The notes below the pieces were generated by a model, which was not told where the DNA came from, ran no database searches, and saw only the letters and a list, made by a program, of their open reading frames with translations. From Sulfurivermis fontis (GTDB lineage: Bacteria; Pseudomonadota; Gammaproteobacteria; Thiohalomonadales; Thiohalomonadaceae), in contig NZ_AP018724.1 in the NCBI RefSeq assembly GCF_004001245.1, positions 2,410,501 to 2,474,500 of the forward strand: a stretch of 64,000 nt of DNA, read 5' to 3'. The position numbers and the translations under genes are program-made. Shown here one piece after another: positions 3,664 through 58,790 of this stretch (positions within the stretch are counted from its first letter, which is position 1; each line of letters starts with the position of its first letter).

Positions 3664-4905
3664 ATGAGAAAGACCATTGCCATCCTGCTGCCGCTGTTCA
3701 CGCTGGCCGGCTGCAAGACCCTGGACTCCGCACTCAACACCGCCGACAAGGCCTTCTCGGTCGTGGAAAGCGGCACGGTCAGGACGCTGCGCGACGCCGC
3801 CGACAGCGATGATGCCGGCGAGTTCATGAAGCAGAAGCTGAAGGACCGGCGCGAGGACTACAAGGACAACCCGCACCTGCTGACCCAGGACATCCGCCAG
3901 GTGCAGAGCGATTTCAATCGCCTGATGGACCTGCTGCAGATCAACGTCAACAAGAACTGGGGCAGCGACTCGCGCCTGCCCGACCGCGTGCACTACGTCA
4001 AATACACCCAGAACTACCAGAGCCGTGCCATCGTCGATTTCGATCGCGGCAGCGTCACGGTGGAAACGCTGGAGACGGACAAACCGAACCGGGCGCTGAA
4101 GAATGCCATCGTCACCACGCTGCTGACGCCGGACGACCCGCGTGCCGTCGATCTGTTCAGCGACAAAGAGATCGAACTGACCAGCAAGCACGATCCGTAT
4201 CTGCTCAAACTGGTCGTCGATCACAACAATCAGCCGGTGCGCACGCCGCAGCAGGCCGAGGCCTTCGCCGCCCACCTGATCGCCGCCGGCACCAAACAGC
4301 GCAGCGTCGAGGTCAAGGACGGCACACGCCAGGCCCGCTATGTCACCATCCCGATGGTGAGCAACTTCTCCAGCGCACAGGCGGAAAAATACCGCCCGCT
4401 GGTGGAGAAATACGCCGCCCGCTACAAGATCAGCCCGAGCCTGGTCTACGCGATGATCCGCACGGAAAGCAACTTCAATCCCTTCGCCGTCAGCCATGCC
4501 CCAGCCTACGGGCTGATGCAGCTGGTGCCGACCAGCGGCGGCCGCGAGGCCTATCGCAAGGTGAAGGGCCAGGACGGCATCCCGAGCAAGGACTATCTGT
4601 TCGATGCCGAAAACAACATCGAACTCGGCGTCGCCTATCTCAATGTGCTGAACACCGAGCAGTTGCACATGGTGCAGAACCGGATCGCGCGCGAGTACTG
4701 CGTCATCTCCGCCTACAATACCGGCCCCGGCAACGTGCTGAAGGCCTTCTCCCGCGACCGTGTCGAGGCGGTCAACGCCATCAACAGCCTGCAACCGCCG
4801 CAGGTTTACGAAAGGCTGCGCGCCCACTTGCCCTACGAGGAAACGCGCCACTATCTGGCCAAGGTGGTGGGCTATCGCCGCGACTACGTCGTCCTGTCCG
4901 ACTGA
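3664..4905 (+). CDS. mltC: Membrane-bound lytic murein transglycosylase C (MltC-like lipoprotein)
   Basis: 413 residues. The N-terminus is a lipoprotein signal with lipobox LAGC, so the mature protein is anchored by a diacylglyceryl cysteine. Residues 30-230 match the MltC N-terminal (DUF3393) type, including the VNKNWGSDSRLPDRVHYVKY region. From about 255 on there is an SLT domain with catalytic glutamate in IRTESNFNPFAVS, then YGLMQLVP and the AYNTGPGNVLKAF substrate-groove motif. It cleaves the MurNAc-GlcNAc bond of peptidoglycan with 1,6-anhydro ring formation. A Shine-Dalgarno GGAGG precedes the ATG. It is slightly longer than E. coli MltC because of an acidic linker after the lipobox. 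Confidence 0.92.
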   Translation: MRKTIAILLPLFTLAGCKTLDSALNTADKAFSVVESGTVRTLRDAADSDDAGEFMKQKLKDRREDYKDNPHLLTQDIRQVQSDFNRLMDLLQINVNKNWGSDSRLPDRVHYVKYTQNYQSRAIVDFDRGSVTVETLETDKPNRALKNAIVTTLLTPDDPRAVDLFSDKEIELTSKHDPYLLKLVVDHNNQPVRTPQQAEAFAAHLIAAGTKQRSVEVKDGTRQARYVTIPMVSNFSSAQAEKYRPLVEKYAARYKISPSLVYAMIRTESNFNPFAVSHAPAYGLMQLVPTSGGREAYRKVKGQDGIPSKDYLFDAENNIELGVAYLNVLNTEQLHMVQNRIAREYCVISAYNTGPGNVLKAFSRDRVEAVNAINSLQPPQVYERLRAHLPYEETRHYLAKVVGYRRDYVVLSD

Positions 4906-4968
4906 TGAACAGCGACCCGGCACCTGCCGGGTCTATACTCCTGACTATCCCAGCCAGGAGCCGACATC

Positions 4969-5703
4969 ATGGCCGAGCATCCCCTGCATTACCGCGCGGT
5001 GGACATGGACGAGGGCGCCGGCGCGCACGTCAAGCGCCTGTTTCCGGTGGCCGGACTGCGCCACGTCGATCCCTTCGTCCTGCTGGATGAATTCTTCGTC
5101 GACCCCGGGGGCGGCTTCCCCGAGCACCCGCACCGCGGTTTCGAGGCCGTCACCTACCTGATGAACGGCGCCATGCGCCACCGCGACAACCTCGGCAACG
5201 ACAGCATCGTGCAGGCCGGCGGCGCGCAGGTATTCACCGCCGGCCGCGGCATCGTCCACTCCGAGGCACCGGCCGGCGAGGAAACCGCCCATGGCATCCA
5301 GCTGTGGATCAACATGGCGAAAATCCACAAGGATCTGCCACCGGCCTATCAGGCAATTGCGGCGCAACAATTGCCGCTGCAGGAACTGTCCTGCGGCCGC
5401 GTGCGCACCGTCATCGGCCCCGGCTCACCGATCCACCTGCACAGCGCCGTCAGCTATCACGACGTGCAACTGGAACAGGAAGGCGAGTTTCACCTGGCCG
5501 TGCCGGCGCATCATGCCGGCCTGATCTATGCGGTGGCGGGTGAGCCCGAAGTGGTGGATGAGCGCCTGGAGACAGGAGCGGCACTGTTGCTCGCCGGGGC
5601 CTCGGTCATCACGGTCTACACCAGCGCGCCGTGTCGCTTCATCTGCATCAGCGGCCAGCCACACGGCGAGCCCATCGTGCAGAACGGTCCCTACGTGGAT
5701 TGA
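4969..5703 (+). CDS. Pirin family protein (bicupin)
   Basis: 244 residues with two cupin barrels. The N-terminal barrel has the pirin metal motif FPEHPHRGFEAVTYL and the later HSE segment (GRGIVHSEAPAGEE), which supply the His/His/His/Glu metal ligands. The C-terminal barrel ends near CRFICISGQP. Many bacterial pirins oxidise quercetin-like compounds or act as redox-sensing partners; some interact with the pyruvate dehydrogenase E1. Function here is unassigned. It follows mltC by 63 bases and leads into a small unknown gene 18 bases further on. Confidence 0.88.
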   Translation: MAEHPLHYRAVDMDEGAGAHVKRLFPVAGLRHVDPFVLLDEFFVDPGGGFPEHPHRGFEAVTYLMNGAMRHRDNLGNDSIVQAGGAQVFTAGRGIVHSEAPAGEETAHGIQLWINMAKIHKDLPPAYQAIAAQQLPLQELSCGRVRTVIGPGSPIHLHSAVSYHDVQLEQEGEFHLAVPAHHAGLIYAVAGEPEVVDERLETGAALLLAGASVITVYTSAPCRFICISGQPHGEPIVQNGPYVD

Positions 5704-11700: not shown

Positions 11701-11906
11701 GGAAGCTCTGAATTAAGTTCAGAGCTTCCGCGGCACAGGGATGTGCCGCCATTTTTCAACGACGATAAGTCGTTGAAAAATGAAGCCGAGCGAAAATCAC
11801 ACTTTTCGCTTGGCGTGGTTTTGTCCACGGATGGACTTATGTCGCGCAGCCCAGGGAGGGGCGGGAGCGACCTGAGAAGTCCAGGATGGACTTATTCAGA
11901 CCTTCC
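11701..11906. mobile_element. Five-hairpin MITE, copy B, enlarged to 206 bp (TSD CTAG)
   Basis: Same ends and hairpins as copy A, flanked by CTAG at 11697-11700 and 11907-11910. Hairpin 3 is perfect here (CATTTTTCAACGAC/GTCGTTGAAAAATG). About 53 extra bases lie between hairpins 4 and 5 (around 11819-11871). They include GTCCACGGATGGAC, which echoes the loop of hairpin 5. The right CTAG contains the stop codon (TAG on the minus strand) of the amidotransferase gene. Confidence 0.9.
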
Positions 11907-13688
11907 CTAGTAGTAAATGTCGACATTGCGCTGCAGCCACAGTTCCAGCAGCGCCAGGTGCCACAGCTTGCTGCCGCGCAGGTAGGTGAAATGTTGCTCC
12001 GGCTCCGCCAGCAACTTTTCCACATAGGCACGGTTGAACAGGCCGCGCTGGCGGCAGGCGTTGGAATCGAGGATGTCGCGCATGAAATCGAGGAACGGAC
12101 CACGCACGTATTTCAACGCCGGCATGGGGAAGTAGCCCTTGGGCCGATCGATGACACCGTCGGGGATCAGACCGCGGGCGATCTTCTTCAATACATGCTT
12201 GCCACCGGAGCCGAGCTTGAGTTCCGGCGGCAGTTGCATCGCCAGTTCCACCAACTCGTGATCGAGGAAGGGGACGCGCGCCTCCAGGCCCCAGGCCATG
12301 GTCATGTTGTCGACACGCTTGACCGGGTCGTCGACGATGAGGGTGGTGGTATCCATGCGCAGCACGCGATCGATGAAGGTATCGGCACCGGGCTGGGTGA
12401 GCAGCTTTTCGATCAGCATCCCGGTGTGATCCTCGCCGCGGAACGGCTCGGCCACGGTTTGCAGGAACTCGCTGTGCGGACGATCGAAATAGTGTTTGGC
12501 GAAGCGCTCCAGGTCAGTACCGCCCTCGGCCTCCATGCGCGGATACCAGAAGTAGCCGCCGAACACCTCGTCGGCGCCCTGGCCGCTCTGCACCACCTTC
12601 ACCTCCTGTGCCACGCGCTCGGCCAGCAGATAGAAGGCCACCGCGTCCTGCCCCACCATGGGCTCGGCCATCTGCTCCACCGCCTCGGGCAGACGCAGCA
12701 ACACCTGATCGTTGGAGATGGCATATTTGTGATGGCGCGTGTCGTACATCGCCACCACCTGATCGGAATACTCGAACTCGCTGCCTTTCTCCTCCGGCAC
12801 GTCCTCGAAACCGATGGAAAAGGTGAGTATGTCCTTGACGCCCTGCTCCGCCAGCAGGCCCACCAGCAGGCTGGAATCGAGGCCGCCGGACAGCAGCACG
12901 CCCACCGGCACGTCGGCGATCTCCAGACGACGCTTCACCGCCTTCTTCAGCGCCGTGTGGATCGCCTCGGTCCATTCCTGCTCGCTGCGCGGCTCGCTCG
13001 GACGGTGGGCGTAGAGCTGCCAGTACTGCCGTTCGCTGCGCCGGCCGTCCTTGTCGATGGTCAGGGTATGGCCCGGTGCCAGCTTGCGGATGCCGTTGAG
13101 GAGGGTGCGCGGCGCCGGGATCACGCCGTGCAGGGTGAACTGGTGGTGCAGGCCGAGCGGGTCGATGCCGACGTCGGCGCCACCGGCGGCGAGCAGGGCC
13201 TGCGTGTTGGAGGCAAAATGGAAGGTCTTGCCGTCGTGACTGTAGTACAACGGCTTGATGCCGAGGCGATCGCGCGCCAGGAACAGGCGCTGGCACCGGA
13301 TATCCCAGATGGCGAAGGCGAACATGCCGGTGAGATGTTCGACGCACTGCTCGCCCCAGGCGGCATAGGCCTTGAGGATGACCTCCGAATCACCGTCGGA
13401 GAAAAAGTTGTAACCGCGCTCGCGCAGTTCCGCGCGCAGGTCGCGGTAGTTGTAGATGGTGCCGTTGAACACCAGCACCAGGCCGAGTTCATTGTCGATC
13501 ATCGGCTGGTGGGAACGCTGCGACAGATCGATGATGGCCAGGCGACGATGCCCCAGCGCCAGCGGGCCGTCGGAATAACTGCCTTCGTGGTCCGGGCCGC
13601 GCCGCTCCAGGCGGTGCAACATGCGCCCCAGCACGGCCAGGTCGGGCACGTGGCCATCCAGTCTCAGTTCACCGCAAATTCCGCACAT
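11907..13688 (-). CDS. Asparagine-synthetase-like amidotransferase, probable N-acetylglutaminylglutamine amide (NAGGN) type
   Basis: 593 residues: class II glutamine amidotransferase domain with catalytic Cys2 (MCGICGELRLDGHVPDL), then an ATP-pyrophosphatase synthetase domain with the P-loop VLLSGGLDSSLLVGLL. The sequence order RRGPDHEGSYSDGPLALGHRRLAIIDLSQRSHQPM resembles the amidotransferase (AsnO type) that amidates the osmolyte dipeptide N-acetylglutaminylglutamine in Pseudomonas and rhizobia. There it sits next to a GNAT/ATP-grasp dipeptide synthetase and a peptidase. Those partners are not adjacent here. Plain asparagine synthetase (AsnB) is the alternative. Its TAG stop is formed by the target duplication of copy B. 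Confidence 0.78.
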   Translation of the reverse strand: MCGICGELRLDGHVPDLAVLGRMLHRLERRGPDHEGSYSDGPLALGHRRLAIIDLSQRSHQPMIDNELGLVLVFNGTIYNYRDLRAELRERGYNFFSDGDSEVILKAYAAWGEQCVEHLTGMFAFAIWDIRCQRLFLARDRLGIKPLYYSHDGKTFHFASNTQALLAAGGADVGIDPLGLHHQFTLHGVIPAPRTLLNGIRKLAPGHTLTIDKDGRRSERQYWQLYAHRPSEPRSEQEWTEAIHTALKKAVKRRLEIADVPVGVLLSGGLDSSLLVGLLAEQGVKDILTFSIGFEDVPEEKGSEFEYSDQVVAMYDTRHHKYAISNDQVLLRLPEAVEQMAEPMVGQDAVAFYLLAERVAQEVKVVQSGQGADEVFGGYFWYPRMEAEGGTDLERFAKHYFDRPHSEFLQTVAEPFRGEDHTGMLIEKLLTQPGADTFIDRVLRMDTTTLIVDDPVKRVDNMTMAWGLEARVPFLDHELVELAMQLPPELKLGSGGKHVLKKIARGLIPDGVIDRPKGYFPMPALKYVRGPFLDFMRDILDSNACRQRGLFNRAYVEKLLAEPEQHFTYLRGSKLWHLALLELWLQRNVDIYY

Positions 13689-52641: not shown

Positions 52642-54123
52642 TCAACGCTGGCGCAGGTGCTGCAACTCCAGGCGGCGCACGAACTCCGCCAGAATCTGGC
52701 GATACAGATCCTCTTTCAGCACCTGGTCCTCGACGCCCGCATCGATATTGGGGTTATCGTTCACCTCGATGACGTAGATACCCTTGTCGGTCTGTTTCAG
52801 GTCCACACCGTAGAGGCCGTCACCGATCAGATTGGCCGCCTTGAGGGCGATAGCCACCACCTCCGCCGGCGCCTGCTCCACCGCCAGGGTCTTCCAACCC
52901 CCCTCCTCGAAAGTGCCGTCGGATTCGTGGTGCACGATCTGCCAGTGCTTCTTCGACATGAAGTATTTGCAGGCGAAGATCGGCTTGCGATTGAGGATGC
53001 CGATGCGCCAGTCGAATTCGGTGTAGAGGTATTCCTGCGCCAGGATTAGCTCCGAGCTCTTGAACAGCCGCTCCGCCTCCTGCCGCATCTGCTCCGGCGT
53101 CTCGGCCTTGACCACGCCGCGGGAGAACGAGCCGTCCGGCACCTTCAGCACCATCGGGTAGCCGATAGCCTCCTCCGCCGCCTTGAGGTCGTTGCGCCCG
53201 GCGATCACCGTGCGCGGCGCCGGCACCTTGTTGGCGCGCAGTAGTTCCGCCAGATAGACCTTGTTGGTACAGCGCAGGATCGACTGCGGATCGTCCATTA
53301 CCACCATGCCCTCGCTTTCCGCCTTTTTGGCGAAGCGATAGGTGTAGTGGTTGATATTGGTGGTCTCGCGGATGAACAGGGCATCGTATTCGGCGAGACG
53401 GGAGTAGTCCTTGCGATCGATGATCTCGATATCGATGTCCAGCGCGCGTCCGGCCTTGATGAAGCGTTGCAAGGCCTTGCGGTTGGACGGCGGCAGCGGG
53501 TCGTCGTAGTTGTACAGGATGGCCAGGTCGTAGCGCGCCTGACTGCGCGATTTGGGTGAGCGCCAGCGTTTCTTCAGGTAGCCGTGCAATTGCTCGGCGA
53601 AAAAGGCACGGTTTTCGCTGTCCAGCTTGTGCAGCGACAAGGGTTTGATGGATTCGATGTGCCAGACACTTTCGGAACGACGGAAACCGACGCGCAGCAA
53701 CGGGCAGGGGAAGGTCTCGAAGATCTGCCGGGCCAGGTCGGCCATCGGCTCGAACAGACACTTGCCGAAGAACACATCCATCTCGAACACCCGCTCGGGA
53801 CTGTCCTTGCGGTATTTGCGCAGACTCTTCGCCACCTCCTCGTCGAGATTGACGGCATTCAGGCTATACATCGCCTTGCTGGACAGATCCAGCATACTCT
53901 TCACCGACGGGATCACCTTGTGATTGCGCGCCTCGGCCAGCAGCGAGCAGTAATAGGCCACGCTGAGATACTTGTAGCTGCGGCACAGGTTGATCACCTG
54001 CACATGCTTGAGATTGAAGTATTCCTTGCCGGTGAAATAGTCATCGACGTTCACCACCGGATAGTCGAGGCCGTCGAACTTCCAGTCCGCCGCATCCTCC
54101 ACCACGATAATCTGCGTAGTCAT
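52642..54123 (-). CDS. RimK-like ATP-grasp ligase with RLAN N-terminal domain
   Basis: 493 residues. The N-terminal half (IIVVEDAADWKFDGLDYPVV, INLCRSYKYLSVAYYCSLLA) matches the RLAN domain that precedes some RimK-type ATP-grasp enzymes. From about residue 200 comes the ATP-grasp fold, with phosphate loop VLKVPDGSFSRGV, FIRETTNINHYTYRFAKKAE and metal motif EVNDNPNIDAGVED. Such ligases join an amino acid or amine to a carboxylate, often on a peptide. It is encoded 11 bases after a GNAT-peptidase fusion on the same strand, a conserved pairing. Substrate unknown. Confidence 0.88.
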   Translation of the reverse strand: MTTQIIVVEDAADWKFDGLDYPVVNVDDYFTGKEYFNLKHVQVINLCRSYKYLSVAYYCSLLAEARNHKVIPSVKSMLDLSSKAMYSLNAVNLDEEVAKSLRKYRKDSPERVFEMDVFFGKCLFEPMADLARQIFETFPCPLLRVGFRRSESVWHIESIKPLSLHKLDSENRAFFAEQLHGYLKKRWRSPKSRSQARYDLAILYNYDDPLPPSNRKALQRFIKAGRALDIDIEIIDRKDYSRLAEYDALFIRETTNINHYTYRFAKKAESEGMVVMDDPQSILRCTNKVYLAELLRANKVPAPRTVIAGRNDLKAAEEAIGYPMVLKVPDGSFSRGVVKAETPEQMRQEAERLFKSSELILAQEYLYTEFDWRIGILNRKPIFACKYFMSKKHWQIVHHESDGTFEEGGWKTLAVEQAPAEVVAIALKAANLIGDGLYGVDLKQTDKGIYVIEVNDNPNIDAGVEDQVLKEDLYRQILAEFVRRLELQHLRQR

Positions 54124-54134
54124 GGCCCTGCTGT

Positions 54135-55262
54135 TTACCTCTTGCGCGTCGTCCGTTTGCGCGCGGTCGTCTCGGGTTTGCGGATGATCAGTACGGCGCG
54201 CTGGCCGGACTTGCCGTAGCGCGCCATACGCTCGAAATCCTTGTGCGGGATAGGCATATTCACGCAGTCGGTGACAGTCTTGCCCTTCTCGCGATCCACG
54301 AAGGAGTCGTGCACATAGATGAAGTGGTCATCAAAGCCGGTCACCACCACCCAGTGCGGAAACTTCTCCTGGTAGATGCGATAGGAGCTTATCAGCACCA
54401 GCGGGATAGCACCGTGCGCAAATTCCTCTTTCATCTCGCCCACCGTAATGCGACGGTAATGCAGCGGCAGTCCGAGCTGTGCCATCTCCTCGGTGAAGTC
54501 GTCCTGCACCAGACGAATGACCTCCTTCTTCTCCTCCGCCCGCACCGAGTCGACGAACAGCGCCCCCTCGTCGTTGACGTATACCTCCACCTCGAAACCA
54601 CGGTGATGGGCCGCCAGGGCCAGACCGAACGGCCCGCAGCCGCCGTGACCGGAGGTCATGAACACCGTGGTGGACTCGCGCCACAGGCGCAGTTCCAGGC
54701 GGCGGTTCAGCTCGATGGCCGGGTCCAGCGCCCCCATGGCCATCATCAAAGCCGCCGGGCCACAGGTGAACTCCAGGGTCTGCTCGTAATAGGGCACCCG
54801 TGCCATGTCCGGCCGCAGCGACGGCAGCAGGCGTTTTTCATAGCGCAGCGCGTCCATGTGGTCTTCATAATAGTCGTCGTAAACACCGAAACGGCGGTAA
54901 CCCATGGATTCGTACAGGGCGATGGACGAGGCATTGTCCACGCGCACCTCCAGACGCAGGGTGACACAATCCTGCGCCAGCGCCGCCTGCTCCGCCGCCA
55001 GCATCAACTGCCGGCCGATGCCGCGGCCGCGATACTGCGGGTCGACGGCGATGGAATACATGCGCGCCAGCGAGGTGCCGGCATTGAACAGCAGCAACAC
55101 ATAGCCACGCACCGCGCCGCCGTCCTCGTCGAGCAGCAGCGCGGCATGGGCCTTGGTGATCATGTGGCGAAAGCTGCGCCGCGACAGGCGATCGGTATCG
55201 AAGCAGCGGTTTTCGATCTCCACCAGGGCGTCGATGTCTTCTGCTGTGGCAGGGCGGATCAT
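54135..55262 (-). CDS. GNAT acetyltransferase fused to a C39-like cysteine peptidase
   Basis: 375 residues with two enzymes in one chain. Residues 1-145 form a GNAT domain with acetyl-CoA loop VDPQYRGRGIGRQLML and LRLEVRVDNASSIALYESMG. Residues 155-350 form a papain/C39-like peptidase: Gln161 and Cys167 in YEQTLEFTCGPAAL, His303 in FPHWVVVTGFDD and Asp319 in IYVHDSF give a plausible catalytic set. It is first in an operon with the RimK-like ligase. The pairing suggests acetylation, cleavage and ligation on one peptide-like substrate. Confidence 0.88.
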   Translation of the reverse strand: MIRPATAEDIDALVEIENRCFDTDRLSRRSFRHMITKAHAALLLDEDGGAVRGYVLLLFNAGTSLARMYSIAVDPQYRGRGIGRQLMLAAEQAALAQDCVTLRLEVRVDNASSIALYESMGYRRFGVYDDYYEDHMDALRYEKRLLPSLRPDMARVPYYEQTLEFTCGPAALMMAMGALDPAIELNRRLELRLWRESTTVFMTSGHGGCGPFGLALAAHHRGFEVEVYVNDEGALFVDSVRAEEKKEVIRLVQDDFTEEMAQLGLPLHYRRITVGEMKEEFAHGAIPLVLISSYRIYQEKFPHWVVVTGFDDHFIYVHDSFVDREKGKTVTDCVNMPIPHKDFERMARYGKSGQRAVLIIRKPETTARKRTTRKR

Positions 55263-55291: not shown

Positions 55292-55921
55292 GTGCGCTGC
55301 GCGCGCTGATCTAGGCGGGGGATTCCGTCCCCCTACTCCGGATTGGTGCGCGCTATCGCGCGGATTAATTTTGGTGCGGGGAGCCGCCCCGCGCGCGGGT
55401 TACTTTTCTTTGTTCGGCCAAAGAAAAGTAACGAAAAGAAAGGCCGCCCGACTCCCGCGCCCTGCGGGTTCCCTGCGCTTCTCGCCCGAATCGGCGCTCG
55501 CCTACGCGCCGTCCCTGGCGCGAAGGCGAGCGCCGATTCGGGCTGCGATGCTCGGCGCGGCAGACGGGGGAAAACCCGAAAGTCAAAATCAAAACCCAAA
55601 ACAAGAAAGTGTGCGCTACACGCACACCTCACAGCGCGATGCCGTCAGGCGAGCCTGTGAGAAATCCCCTTTGTCTCGCCGAGTAGCGCAGCTCAAAACG
55701 GACAGGCCCGCAGGGGGCGCGCCATGGATGGCGCGTCGTTCGCCGTCAGGACACGGACGTCCTGTCGGCGAAACCCCGTTTTGAGCGAGCAACGCAGGGA
55801 ACCCGAAGGGCGAGACATCGGGGGCGCCTTTTCTTTGATTACTTTCTTTTGGCGAGACAAAAGAAAGTAATCCGGCGCAGGGGGACGGAATCCCCCGCCT
55901 AAATCAGCGCACGCAGCGCAC
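55292..55921. repeat. 630-bp palindromic element with 43-bp terminal inverted repeats
   Basis: The left end 55292-55334 (starting GTGCGCTGCGCGCGCTGATC) is matched by the inverted right end 55879-55921 with 41 of 43 bases identical. Inside lies a second inverted pair built from TTACTTTTCTTTG-type palindromes at about 55400-55440 and 55833-55872. A third consists of GCGGGTTCCCTGCGCTTCTC and its counterpart near 55788-55815. The left half also matches the 33.2-kb repeat. No credible gene is present. Confidence 0.82.
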
Positions 55922-56014: not shown

Positions 56015-57166
56015 ATGACCACACCGCCGCCCTCCCTGCACGACATGCTCGCCGCCCTGATCGCCGCCCCCTCCATGAGCAGCGTCAGCCCGGAGTTCGA
56101 CACCAGCAACCGGCCGGTCATCGACCTGCTGGCGCTGTGGCTTTCCGGCATGGGGTTCCAGGTGGAGGTGCTGCCGCTGCCCAGCCAGCCCCACAAGGCC
56201 AACCTCATCGCCACCCTGGGCCAGGGGCCGGGCGGCCTGGTGCTGGCCGGCCATACCGACACCGTGCCCTACGACGAAGGGCGCTGGAACCATGATCCAT
56301 TCCGCCTCACCGAGGCGGACGGGCGCTACTACGGTCTCGGCACCTCGGACATGAAGGGATTTTTCGCCCTCGCCATCGAGGCGGCGCGCGGGTTTCAGGC
56401 CGGTGATTTGAAGCAGCCGCTGATCCTCCTCGCCACTGCCGACGAGGAAAGTTCCATGGAAGGCGCCCAGGCCCTGGTGGAACTGGGCCGGCCGCGGGCA
56501 CGTCATGCCGTCATCGGCGAACCCACCGGCCTGCGCCCGGTGAACGCCCACAAGGGTATCCTGATGGAGGGGATCCGTCTCACCGGCCGCTCCGGCCACT
56601 CCAGCGATCCCTCCCTCGGCAACAGCGCCCTGGAGGGCATGCACAAGGTCATCGGCGAACTGCTCACCTGGCGCGGCGAACTGCAAGCCCGCCACCGCGA
56701 CCCGCGCTTCACCGTGCCGGTGCCCACCCTCAACCTGGGCCACATCCACGGCGGCGACAATCCCAACCGCATCTGCGGCCAGTGCGATCTGCACATCGAC
56801 CTGCGCCCCCTGCCCGGCATGGAACTGGACGAACTGCGCGCCACCCTGGAACAGCGCCTGGGCGAGACCCTGGCCGGCAGCGGCCTGCACCTGGAGGTGC
56901 GGCGCCTGTTCCACGGCACCCCGGCGATGCACACCCCGGCCACCGCCGCCATCGTGCAAACCGCCGAACAACTCAGCGGCCACAGCGCCCAGGCCGTCGC
57001 CTTCTGCACCGAGGGGCCGTACCTGAACCGCCTCGGCATGGACACCATCATCCTCGGCCCGGGTGACATCGCCCAGGCACACCAACCGGACGAATACCTG
57101 GCGCTGGAGCGGATCGATCCCATGGTCGGCATTCTCAAAGGGCTGATTCAGCGGTTCTGTTTGTAA
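56015..57166 (+). CDS. argE: Acetylornithine deacetylase
   Basis: 383 residues of the M20 metal-dependent hydrolase family. Metal and active-site blocks are LVLAGHTDTVPYDEGRW, YGLGTSDMKGFFAL and LLATADEESSMEGAQALVEL; the dimerisation insert starts near GRSGHSSDPSLGNSALEGMH. It releases ornithine from N2-acetylornithine. It is followed 308 bases later by argA, with a mobile repeat between. With argA and argD this means the linear acetylated arginine pathway. Confidence 0.95.
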   Translation: MTTPPPSLHDMLAALIAAPSMSSVSPEFDTSNRPVIDLLALWLSGMGFQVEVLPLPSQPHKANLIATLGQGPGGLVLAGHTDTVPYDEGRWNHDPFRLTEADGRYYGLGTSDMKGFFALAIEAARGFQAGDLKQPLILLATADEESSMEGAQALVELGRPRARHAVIGEPTGLRPVNAHKGILMEGIRLTGRSGHSSDPSLGNSALEGMHKVIGELLTWRGELQARHRDPRFTVPVPTLNLGHIHGGDNPNRICGQCDLHIDLRPLPGMELDELRATLEQRLGETLAGSGLHLEVRRLFHGTPAMHTPATAAIVQTAEQLSGHSAQAVAFCTEGPYLNRLGMDTIILGPGDIAQAHQPDEYLALERIDPMVGILKGLIQRFCL

Positions 57167-57352: not shown

Positions 57353-57473
57353 CCAAGCAAAAGCGCCCTTTGTTTTTCTTGCAACTTGTAACCTGCCACT
57401 TTCCGACTAGACATTCCCCTCCGCTGCCCGGAAAATGCCCAATCAGAACAACAGGAAGGAAAAGGATCCGCCC

Positions 57474-58790
57474 GTGACCACGCCCACCGACGAACAGGCC
57501 TTTGTCCGCTGGTTCCGCGGCTCCACGCCCTACATCAACGCCTTCCGCGGCCGCACCTTCGTCATCACCTTCGGCGGCGAGCTGGTGGCCGAGGAACAGT
57601 TCGCCAGCTTCGTGCACGACATCGGCCTGCTCAACAGCCTGGGCGTGCGCCTGGTGCTGGTACACGGCGCGCGGCCGCAGATCGAGGAGCGACTCAACGC
57701 CCGCGGCATCGAGCTGCACTATGAGAACGGCCTGCGCATCACCGACGCCGCCGCCCTCGCCTGCGTCAAGGAGGCCGCCGGTACGGTGCGGGTCGAACTG
57801 GAGGCCCTGCTCTCCATGGGCCTGGCCAACTCCCCCATGGCGGGCGCGCGTATCCGCGTCGCCTCCGGCAACTTCGTCACCGCCCAGCCGCTCGGCGTGC
57901 GCGACGGCATCGACTACCAGCACACCGGCGAGGTGCGCCGCATCGACGGCGAGGCGATACAGAAGCAATTGCATGACGGCGCCATCGTGCTGCTCTCGCC
58001 CATCGGCTATTCGCCCACCGGCGAGACCTTCAACCTCAGCGCCGAGGACGTGGCCACCGCCACGGCCATGCAGTTGCGTGCGGAAAAACTCATCTTCCTC
58101 ACCGACGCCAAGGGCGTCACCGACAGCCGGCGCCGGCTGATCCGCGAGCTGAACCTCACCGAGGCGGAACAGGCGCTGGCACGCAAGCAGAGCGAGGAGA
58201 TGGCGCGCTGCCTGGGCGGCGCCCTGCGCGCCTGCCGCGGCGGCGTGCGCCGCGCCCACCTCATCGATCGTCATGTCGACGGCGCCCTGCTGCTGGAGCT
58301 GTTCACCCGCGACGGCATCGGCACCCTGGTCAGCGGCGAGCTGTTCGAGGGTACACGCCGCGCCAGCATCGACGACGTCGGCGGCATCCTCGAACTCATC
58401 GCCCCGCTGGAGGCGGAAGGCGTCCTGGTGCGCCGCTCGCGCGAGCTGCTGGAGATGGAAATCGATCAATTCATCGTCACCGAACGCGATCGCATGATCG
58501 TCGCCTGCGCCGCGCTGTACCCGTTCGCCGAGGAGCGGGTGGGCGAGCTCGCCTGCCTGGCGGTACACCGCGACTACCGCAAACAGGGACGCGGCGACGA
58601 TCTGCTCGCCTTCATCGAGCGGCAGGCCAGGGACATGGGCATCGAACGGCTGTTCGTGCTCACCACGCGCACCGCCCACTGGTTCCAGGAACGCGGCTTC
58701 CGCGAGGCGGACATCAAGGATCTGCCGGTGAAGAAGCAGGCGATGTACAACTGGCAGCGCCGCTCCAAGGTGTTCATCAAGCCGCTCTGA
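57474..58790 (+). CDS. argA: N-acetylglutamate synthase
   Basis: 438 residues from the GTG start (451 from an ATG at 57435). An amino-acid-kinase-like N-terminal domain (VITFGGELVAEEQFASFVHD, LVLVHGARPQIEERL) regulates a C-terminal GNAT domain (LACLAVHRDYRKQGRGDDLLAF). It acetylates glutamate as the first arginine step and is inhibited by arginine in relatives. GTG 57474 is favoured by AAGG at normal spacing; the ATG has its GGAAA too close. It ends 2 bases before dam. Confidence 0.94.
   Translation: MTTPTDEQAFVRWFRGSTPYINAFRGRTFVITFGGELVAEEQFASFVHDIGLLNSLGVRLVLVHGARPQIEERLNARGIELHYENGLRITDAAALACVKEAAGTVRVELEALLSMGLANSPMAGARIRVASGNFVTAQPLGVRDGIDYQHTGEVRRIDGEAIQKQLHDGAIVLLSPIGYSPTGETFNLSAEDVATATAMQLRAEKLIFLTDAKGVTDSRRRLIRELNLTEAEQALARKQSEEMARCLGGALRACRGGVRRAHLIDRHVDGALLLELFTRDGIGTLVSGELFEGTRRASIDDVGGILELIAPLEAEGVLVRRSRELLEMEIDQFIVTERDRMIVACAALYPFAEERVGELACLAVHRDYRKQGRGDDLLAFIERQARDMGIERLFVLTTRTAHWFQERGFREADIKDLPVKKQAMYNWQRRSKVFIKPL

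Follow-up and report, generated by a model that had tools for sequence, protein, structure and literature searches.

The window, by which we mean the whole 64,000-nucleotide stretch analysed here, carries two minus-strand genes in tandem, as read from its open reading frames, with the gene of a GNAT-peptidase fusion upstream and that of a carboxylate-amine ligase downstream (Table 1). The first-pass annotation had placed an acetyltransferase and a C39-like cysteine peptidase on one chain and, 11 bases on, an ATP-grasp ligase with an RLAN domain; both statements are borne out by the gene coordinates and by Pfam matches to every domain concerned. Divergently upstream of the pair lie argE and then argA (window 56015-57166 and 57435-58790, named from reading the sequences), and argE is the divergent neighbour in the window and in at least six other loci (L045, L047, L055, L056, L077 and L082). 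An inverted-repeat element, TTACTTTTCTTTGTTCGGCCAAAGAAAAGTAA, is found at window 55400-55431, upstream of the gene pair, and has one copy in the window.

Table 1. Genes, spacer and domains of the pair, in window coordinates
Feature	Position	Strand	Basis
GNAT + DUF3335 (C39-like cysteine peptidase) fusion, 375 aa	54135..55262	-	ORF
GNAT domain, residues 1-147, RimI/Ard1-like N-alpha-acetyltransferase fold	54822..55262	-	Pfam, fold, alignment
DUF3335 / papain-like C39 domain, residues 156-360	54183..54797	-	Pfam, alignment
Spacer between the two co-directional genes, 11 bases	54124..54134		ORF coordinates
RLAN + RimK-type ATP-grasp carboxylate-amine ligase, 493 aa	52642..54123	-	ORF
RLAN N-terminal alpha/beta domain, residues 27-177	53593..54045	-	Pfam, alignment, model
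Pre-ATP-grasp + ATP-grasp module, residues 198-487, LysX/ArgX/RimK fold	52663..53532	-	Alignment, fold search

Domains and conserved residues of the two proteins

The peptidase half of the fusion protein is matched by PF11814 (DUF3335/C39-like) at residues 156-360 (1.1e-91; 306.3 bits against a gathering cut-off of 25). The catalytic residues Gln161, Cys167, His303 and Asp319, claimed to be intact in the first reading of the sequence, are present at those positions and invariant across all 31 homologues in the alignment, as are E190, R195, T203, G205 and G208, and the same set of four is matched in the stand-alone C39 proteins of a clade with GCS2 and FGase (clade B). The codon of Cys167 is TGT (54764-54762). 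Sequence searches returned no credible solved relative of this C39 domain.

The acetyltransferase half is matched by PF00583 (GNAT) at residues 11-122 (9e-20). Its Glu105 is invariant in the 31 homologues, and residue 117, at the position of the RimI general-acid Tyr, is either Tyr or Phe (Phe in 9 of 31). In the AlphaFold model of the fusion (mean pLDDT 89.6) the GNAT half resembles Ard1 and RimI in the PDB (Z 22-23), and a fold search with the whole chain gave GNAT matches over residues 1-147 throughout the matches listed. The GNAT marginally exceeds the cut-off of the rimI model TIGR01575 (88.8 against 86.4 bits); a better RimI is encoded elsewhere in the genome (128.9 bits), and the window GNAT, being part of a fusion, is not the stand-alone housekeeping RimI.

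The ligase has a match to PF14401 (RLAN) at residues 27-177 (1.4e-50; 171.3 bits against a gathering cut-off of 25), a domain marked by the motif INLCRSYRYLSxGYYxSLLAEAR, and a match to PF08443 (RimK ATP-grasp) at residues 287-462 (2e-12). Six residues, K288, K327, R373, D441, E453 and N455, are invariant in 41 aligned sequences and align with conserved ATP-grasp positions of Thermus LysX; from what is established for the ATP-grasp family, we take them to be the ATP and Mg ligands. The AlphaFold model (mean pLDDT 84.8) superposes its ATP-grasp half on LysX, ArgX and RimK with Z of 26-28 and rmsd of 2.1-2.9 over about 270 residues, and the matches listed by the PDB fold search are all of the ATP-grasp kind. 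The score on the RimK family model TIGR00768 is 94.3 bits, under the curated cut-off of 143.4; no protein in the genome passes that cut-off, and the window RLAN protein is the best RimK-family match that the genome has. Several other associations were considered and rejected: a LysW-type carrier, as neither a match to TIGR01206 in the genome nor a conserved small ORF near the pair was found; a retropepsin partner of the Rlo or RimB-RimK type (PF05618), of which the genome has none; an anti-phage defence system, for which there was no PADLOC model match; and a phage-borne gene, since phages gave only partial ATP-grasp matches.

A constant ligase and its exchangeable partners

Of 143 genomes sampled evenly across the class, 34 carry RLAN and 23 a strong DUF3335, which places RLAN ligases in roughly one in four of the families sampled. 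All 23 genomes with a strong DUF3335 also have RLAN (Fisher p ~1e-18 over the 143 genomes), and in the family of the window RLAN occurs in 13 of 20 genomes and DUF3335 in the identical 13, close together on the same contig; the pairing is therefore not a matter of chance. The neighbourhood comparison proposed as a check by the first-pass annotation agrees with this, in that the two genes are kept within a few kb of each other in 22 of the 23 DUF3335 genomes of the class, and close together in all 13 of the family.

A wider scan yielded more than 580 relatives, of which the 80 closest to the window were kept. Nearly all of these best 80 are Pseudomonadota, and they include RLAN ligases of Pseudomonas, Lysobacterales and Azospirillum. 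Because the relatives kept are those closest to the window, the following counts of variants are not population frequencies: of 113 RLAN loci, 66 have a GNAT-C39 fusion as neighbour, 31 a GNAT that lacks C39, 8 a stand-alone C39 and 8 none of these, several of the last group having a DUF3335 elsewhere in the genome. GCS2 and FGase accompany the stand-alone C39 in seven of its eight loci, and the two also adjoin RLAN in Legionella adelaidensis. On a quick RLAN tree with many open forks, the stand-alone C39 set forms a single clade with 100% support, and the GNAT-only type emerges in several places, including a Lysobacterales clade; a distant RLAN of Aeromonas (32% identity) likewise adjoins a GNAT-only gene. 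No DUF3335 was found anywhere in the GNAT-only genomes searched. Finally, some RLAN loci have neither GNAT nor GCS2 beside the ligase, namely P. aeruginosa L159, L070 (C39 only) and L071 (neither).

The separation of the peptidase can be followed closely in the Pseudomonas fluorescens group. Here the C39 domain is deleted exactly, with the GNAT remaining, in P. fluorescens EK007 and Pseudomonas sp. BCA17, and the flanks of the P. costantinii gene (L089) align on either side of the segment missing from both strains; the loss of C39 in this group is recent and exact. The GNAT left behind has a dN/dS of 0.19-0.37, which points to continued purifying selection on the residual domain. It seems that the C39 peptidase is real, with an active site conserved wherever the domain is present, and yet dispensable.

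These variants do not support the earlier proposal that acetylation, cutting and ligation form the set that such a pathway needs, since 31 of the 113 RLAN loci keep the GNAT and lack C39, and the GNAT itself is replaced in one clade. The invariant unit is not "acetylate, cut, ligate"; the ligase is the constant part of the module. Its core looks like an N-capping enzyme (GNAT, or putatively GCS2) together with the ligase, the peptidase being a separable trimming step.

Other genes recur near the module. DUF155 (RMND1/Sif2-Sif3/Mrx10) is found in 12 of 34 RLAN genomes against 9 of 109 others (p = 3.6e-4) and lies within about 6 kb of RLAN in seven loci of both operon types (L062, L063, L048, L057, L119, L148 and L156); it is missing from many RLAN genomes, including that of the window. 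DUF2817 adjoins GNAT-C39 in five loci, one of its proteins having a weak zinc carboxypeptidase match (E 0.1), and was rejected as a general partner, its co-occurrence with RLAN being not significant (p = 0.24). No conserved small carrier ORF was found near the pair, the matches obtained being genus-restricted or resembling antisense frames. An apparent N-terminal fusion in L042 and L046 (ORFs of 737-779 aa) was also discarded: the extension has no Pfam domain and resembles an antisense frame of the window argE.

Two loci deserve a separate mention. L159 is a plasmid with a chromosome-like segment (ggt, pagP), and the P. aeruginosa RLAN orthologue that it carries at 11902-13491, with no GNAT adjoining, is identified as PA1345 from the order of genes and from its CpxR motif. 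PMC12802237 lists PA1345 as having such a motif, by motif only and not by DAP-seq, and the motif is also present at L159 11818; control by CpxR was rejected, given this motif-only listing and an exact consensus in 2 of 164 loci. In L164, the Sinorhizobium meliloti plasmid pSINME02, a C39 peptidase gene (4827-5495) follows an ABC transporter operon and adjoins asnB, transaminase and formyltransferase genes, possibly a small natural-product cluster.

A proposed N-capping and ligation module

We tentatively read the pair as a self-contained module that would N-cap, ligate and trim, and by which a small N-capped peptide would be synthesised and turned over, a reading to which we give slightly less than an even chance. 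The GNAT would acetylate an amino acid or dipeptide at its alpha-amino group; the RLAN ATP-grasp enzyme would activate the carboxylate of the capped molecule as an acyl phosphate and then join an alpha-amino acid to it; and the C39 domain, sharing a chain with the GNAT, could hydrolyse, trim or transfer the capped product. In the other clade, GCS2 would cap the amino group with gamma-glutamate, with an FGase hydrolase and a free-standing C39 alongside. Such a module would work like the GNAT and ATP-grasp synthetase of N-acetylglutaminylglutamine amide while standing outside that family. The retention of the GNAT when the peptidase is lost, and the presence of the amide-forming GCS2 in its place in one clade, suggest that both block the alpha-amino group before or after ligation, and the dispensability of C39 is what would be expected of a trimming or recycling step. 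Extended to the whole family, a still more tentative picture is that of one RLAN ligase with interchangeable N-capping enzymes (RimI-type GNAT or GCS2) and optional hydrolases (C39, FGase, DUF2817), which may constitute a modular peptide pathway of free-living Pseudomonadota and yield a new class of N-capped peptide metabolite.

The main competitor, which we weighed against this small-molecule reading and consider less likely, is protein modification: the RLAN ligase would add amino acids to a protein C-terminus or side-chain carboxylate, as RimK does on ribosomal S6, the GNAT would acetylate the N-terminus or cap the tag, and C39 would remove the tag. A protein substrate, rather than a peptide metabolite, is what the nearest relatives would suggest, as the closest folds are those of RimI/Ard1, of LysX/ArgX (with LysW) and of RimK (with S6), characterised enzymes that act on proteins, RimK and LysX/ArgX on the protein C-terminus. 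However, no dedicated substrate gene was found near the pair, and the absence both of a conserved carrier gene there and of LysW from the genome favours a small-molecule substrate. The lack of a canonical RimK above the family cut-off would allow the window ligase to substitute for it, whereas a canonical RimI is present elsewhere in the genome. Human RMND1, a relative of DUF155, is tied to mitochondrial translation, and DUF155 as a recurrent neighbour, through both its co-occurrence with RLAN and its proximity, gives a hint of a role in translation or in membranes and not in metabolism, although many RLAN genomes, that of the window among them, do without it. The loci with neither GNAT nor GCS2 (L159, L070 and L071) also count against the peptide-metabolite reading, while the exchange of the GNAT for GCS2, a ligase of the small-molecule type, suits a metabolite better than a protein.

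Two further explanations appear improbable. GCS2, ATP-grasp and papain-like enzymes are the three enzyme kinds of glutathione and phytochelatin synthesis, and their occurrence in one operon in the second clade could mean that the ligase or ligases make a peptide thiol or gamma-peptide on which the papain-like C39 acts as a transpeptidase; but the window-type pair has no GCS2, the clade-B GCS2 scores far under the equivalog of cyanobacterial glutamate-cysteine ligase (43 against 249 bits), and the C39 enzyme is missing in many members. More improbable still is the tailoring of a cofactor by alpha-glutamylation, like that of MptN on tetrahydromethanopterin, with the GNAT as a separate enzyme: although MptN gives the best score of the clade-B ligase, its 83 bits fall well short of the 350 bits set as the MptN cut-off, and the recurrent GNAT partner would be left unexplained.

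Relation to known systems

Iyer, Abhiman, Burroughs and Aravind reportedly predicted, in 2009, neighbourhoods of RLAN, GNAT and C39 with the same domains as the window pair, which is one of several hundred members of the family. We found no experimental work on RLAN, DUF3335 or PF14401 in text searches of the open literature, in keeping with the first-pass statement that substrate and product are uncharacterised; the module is widespread in bacteria and, as far as that literature shows, biochemically unstudied. PMC10318531 mentions a DUF3335-GNAT fusion, with Iyer et al. 2009 cited as its source. As far as can be told, three points are new, namely that C39 is separable, how the partners are exchanged along the RLAN tree, and the DUF155 link; the C39-less, clade-B and DUF155/DUF2817 variants may in part be in Iyer et al. 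2009 already. What is added to the earlier prediction is which parts of the module are constant and which interchangeable. The pair is ordinary as a sequence find and moderately interesting as a testable module, in which the natural C39-less variants and the partner-exchanged clade are ready-made comparisons, and the prediction of a peptide-forming module can be tested stepwise.

The window ligase shares its fold (Z 26-28) and its ATP/Mg residues with RimK, LysX and ArgX but, unlike these, has an extra RLAN domain and its own motif, E-V-N-D-N-P. The GNAT shares the fold of RimI and Ard1 (NatA; Z 22-23) and the conserved Glu, and differs in being fused to a peptidase. In N-acetylglutaminylglutamine (NAGGN) synthesis a GNAT and an ATP-grasp are used together, as they are in the pair, but they form one fused chain in NAGGN synthetase only; the window GNAT scores 29.3 bits on its model TIGR03103, against a cut-off of 569, and the 25 best model matches of the ligase do not include this model. 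The Rlo (RloA-B-C) and RimB-RimK systems of Pseudomonas also combine a RimK-type ATP-grasp with a protease in one operon (PMC12239564), an arrangement that recalls the window pair; their protease, however, is an aspartic retropepsin (PF05618 family) and no GNAT accompanies it, whereas the window pair has a cysteine peptidase and a GNAT.
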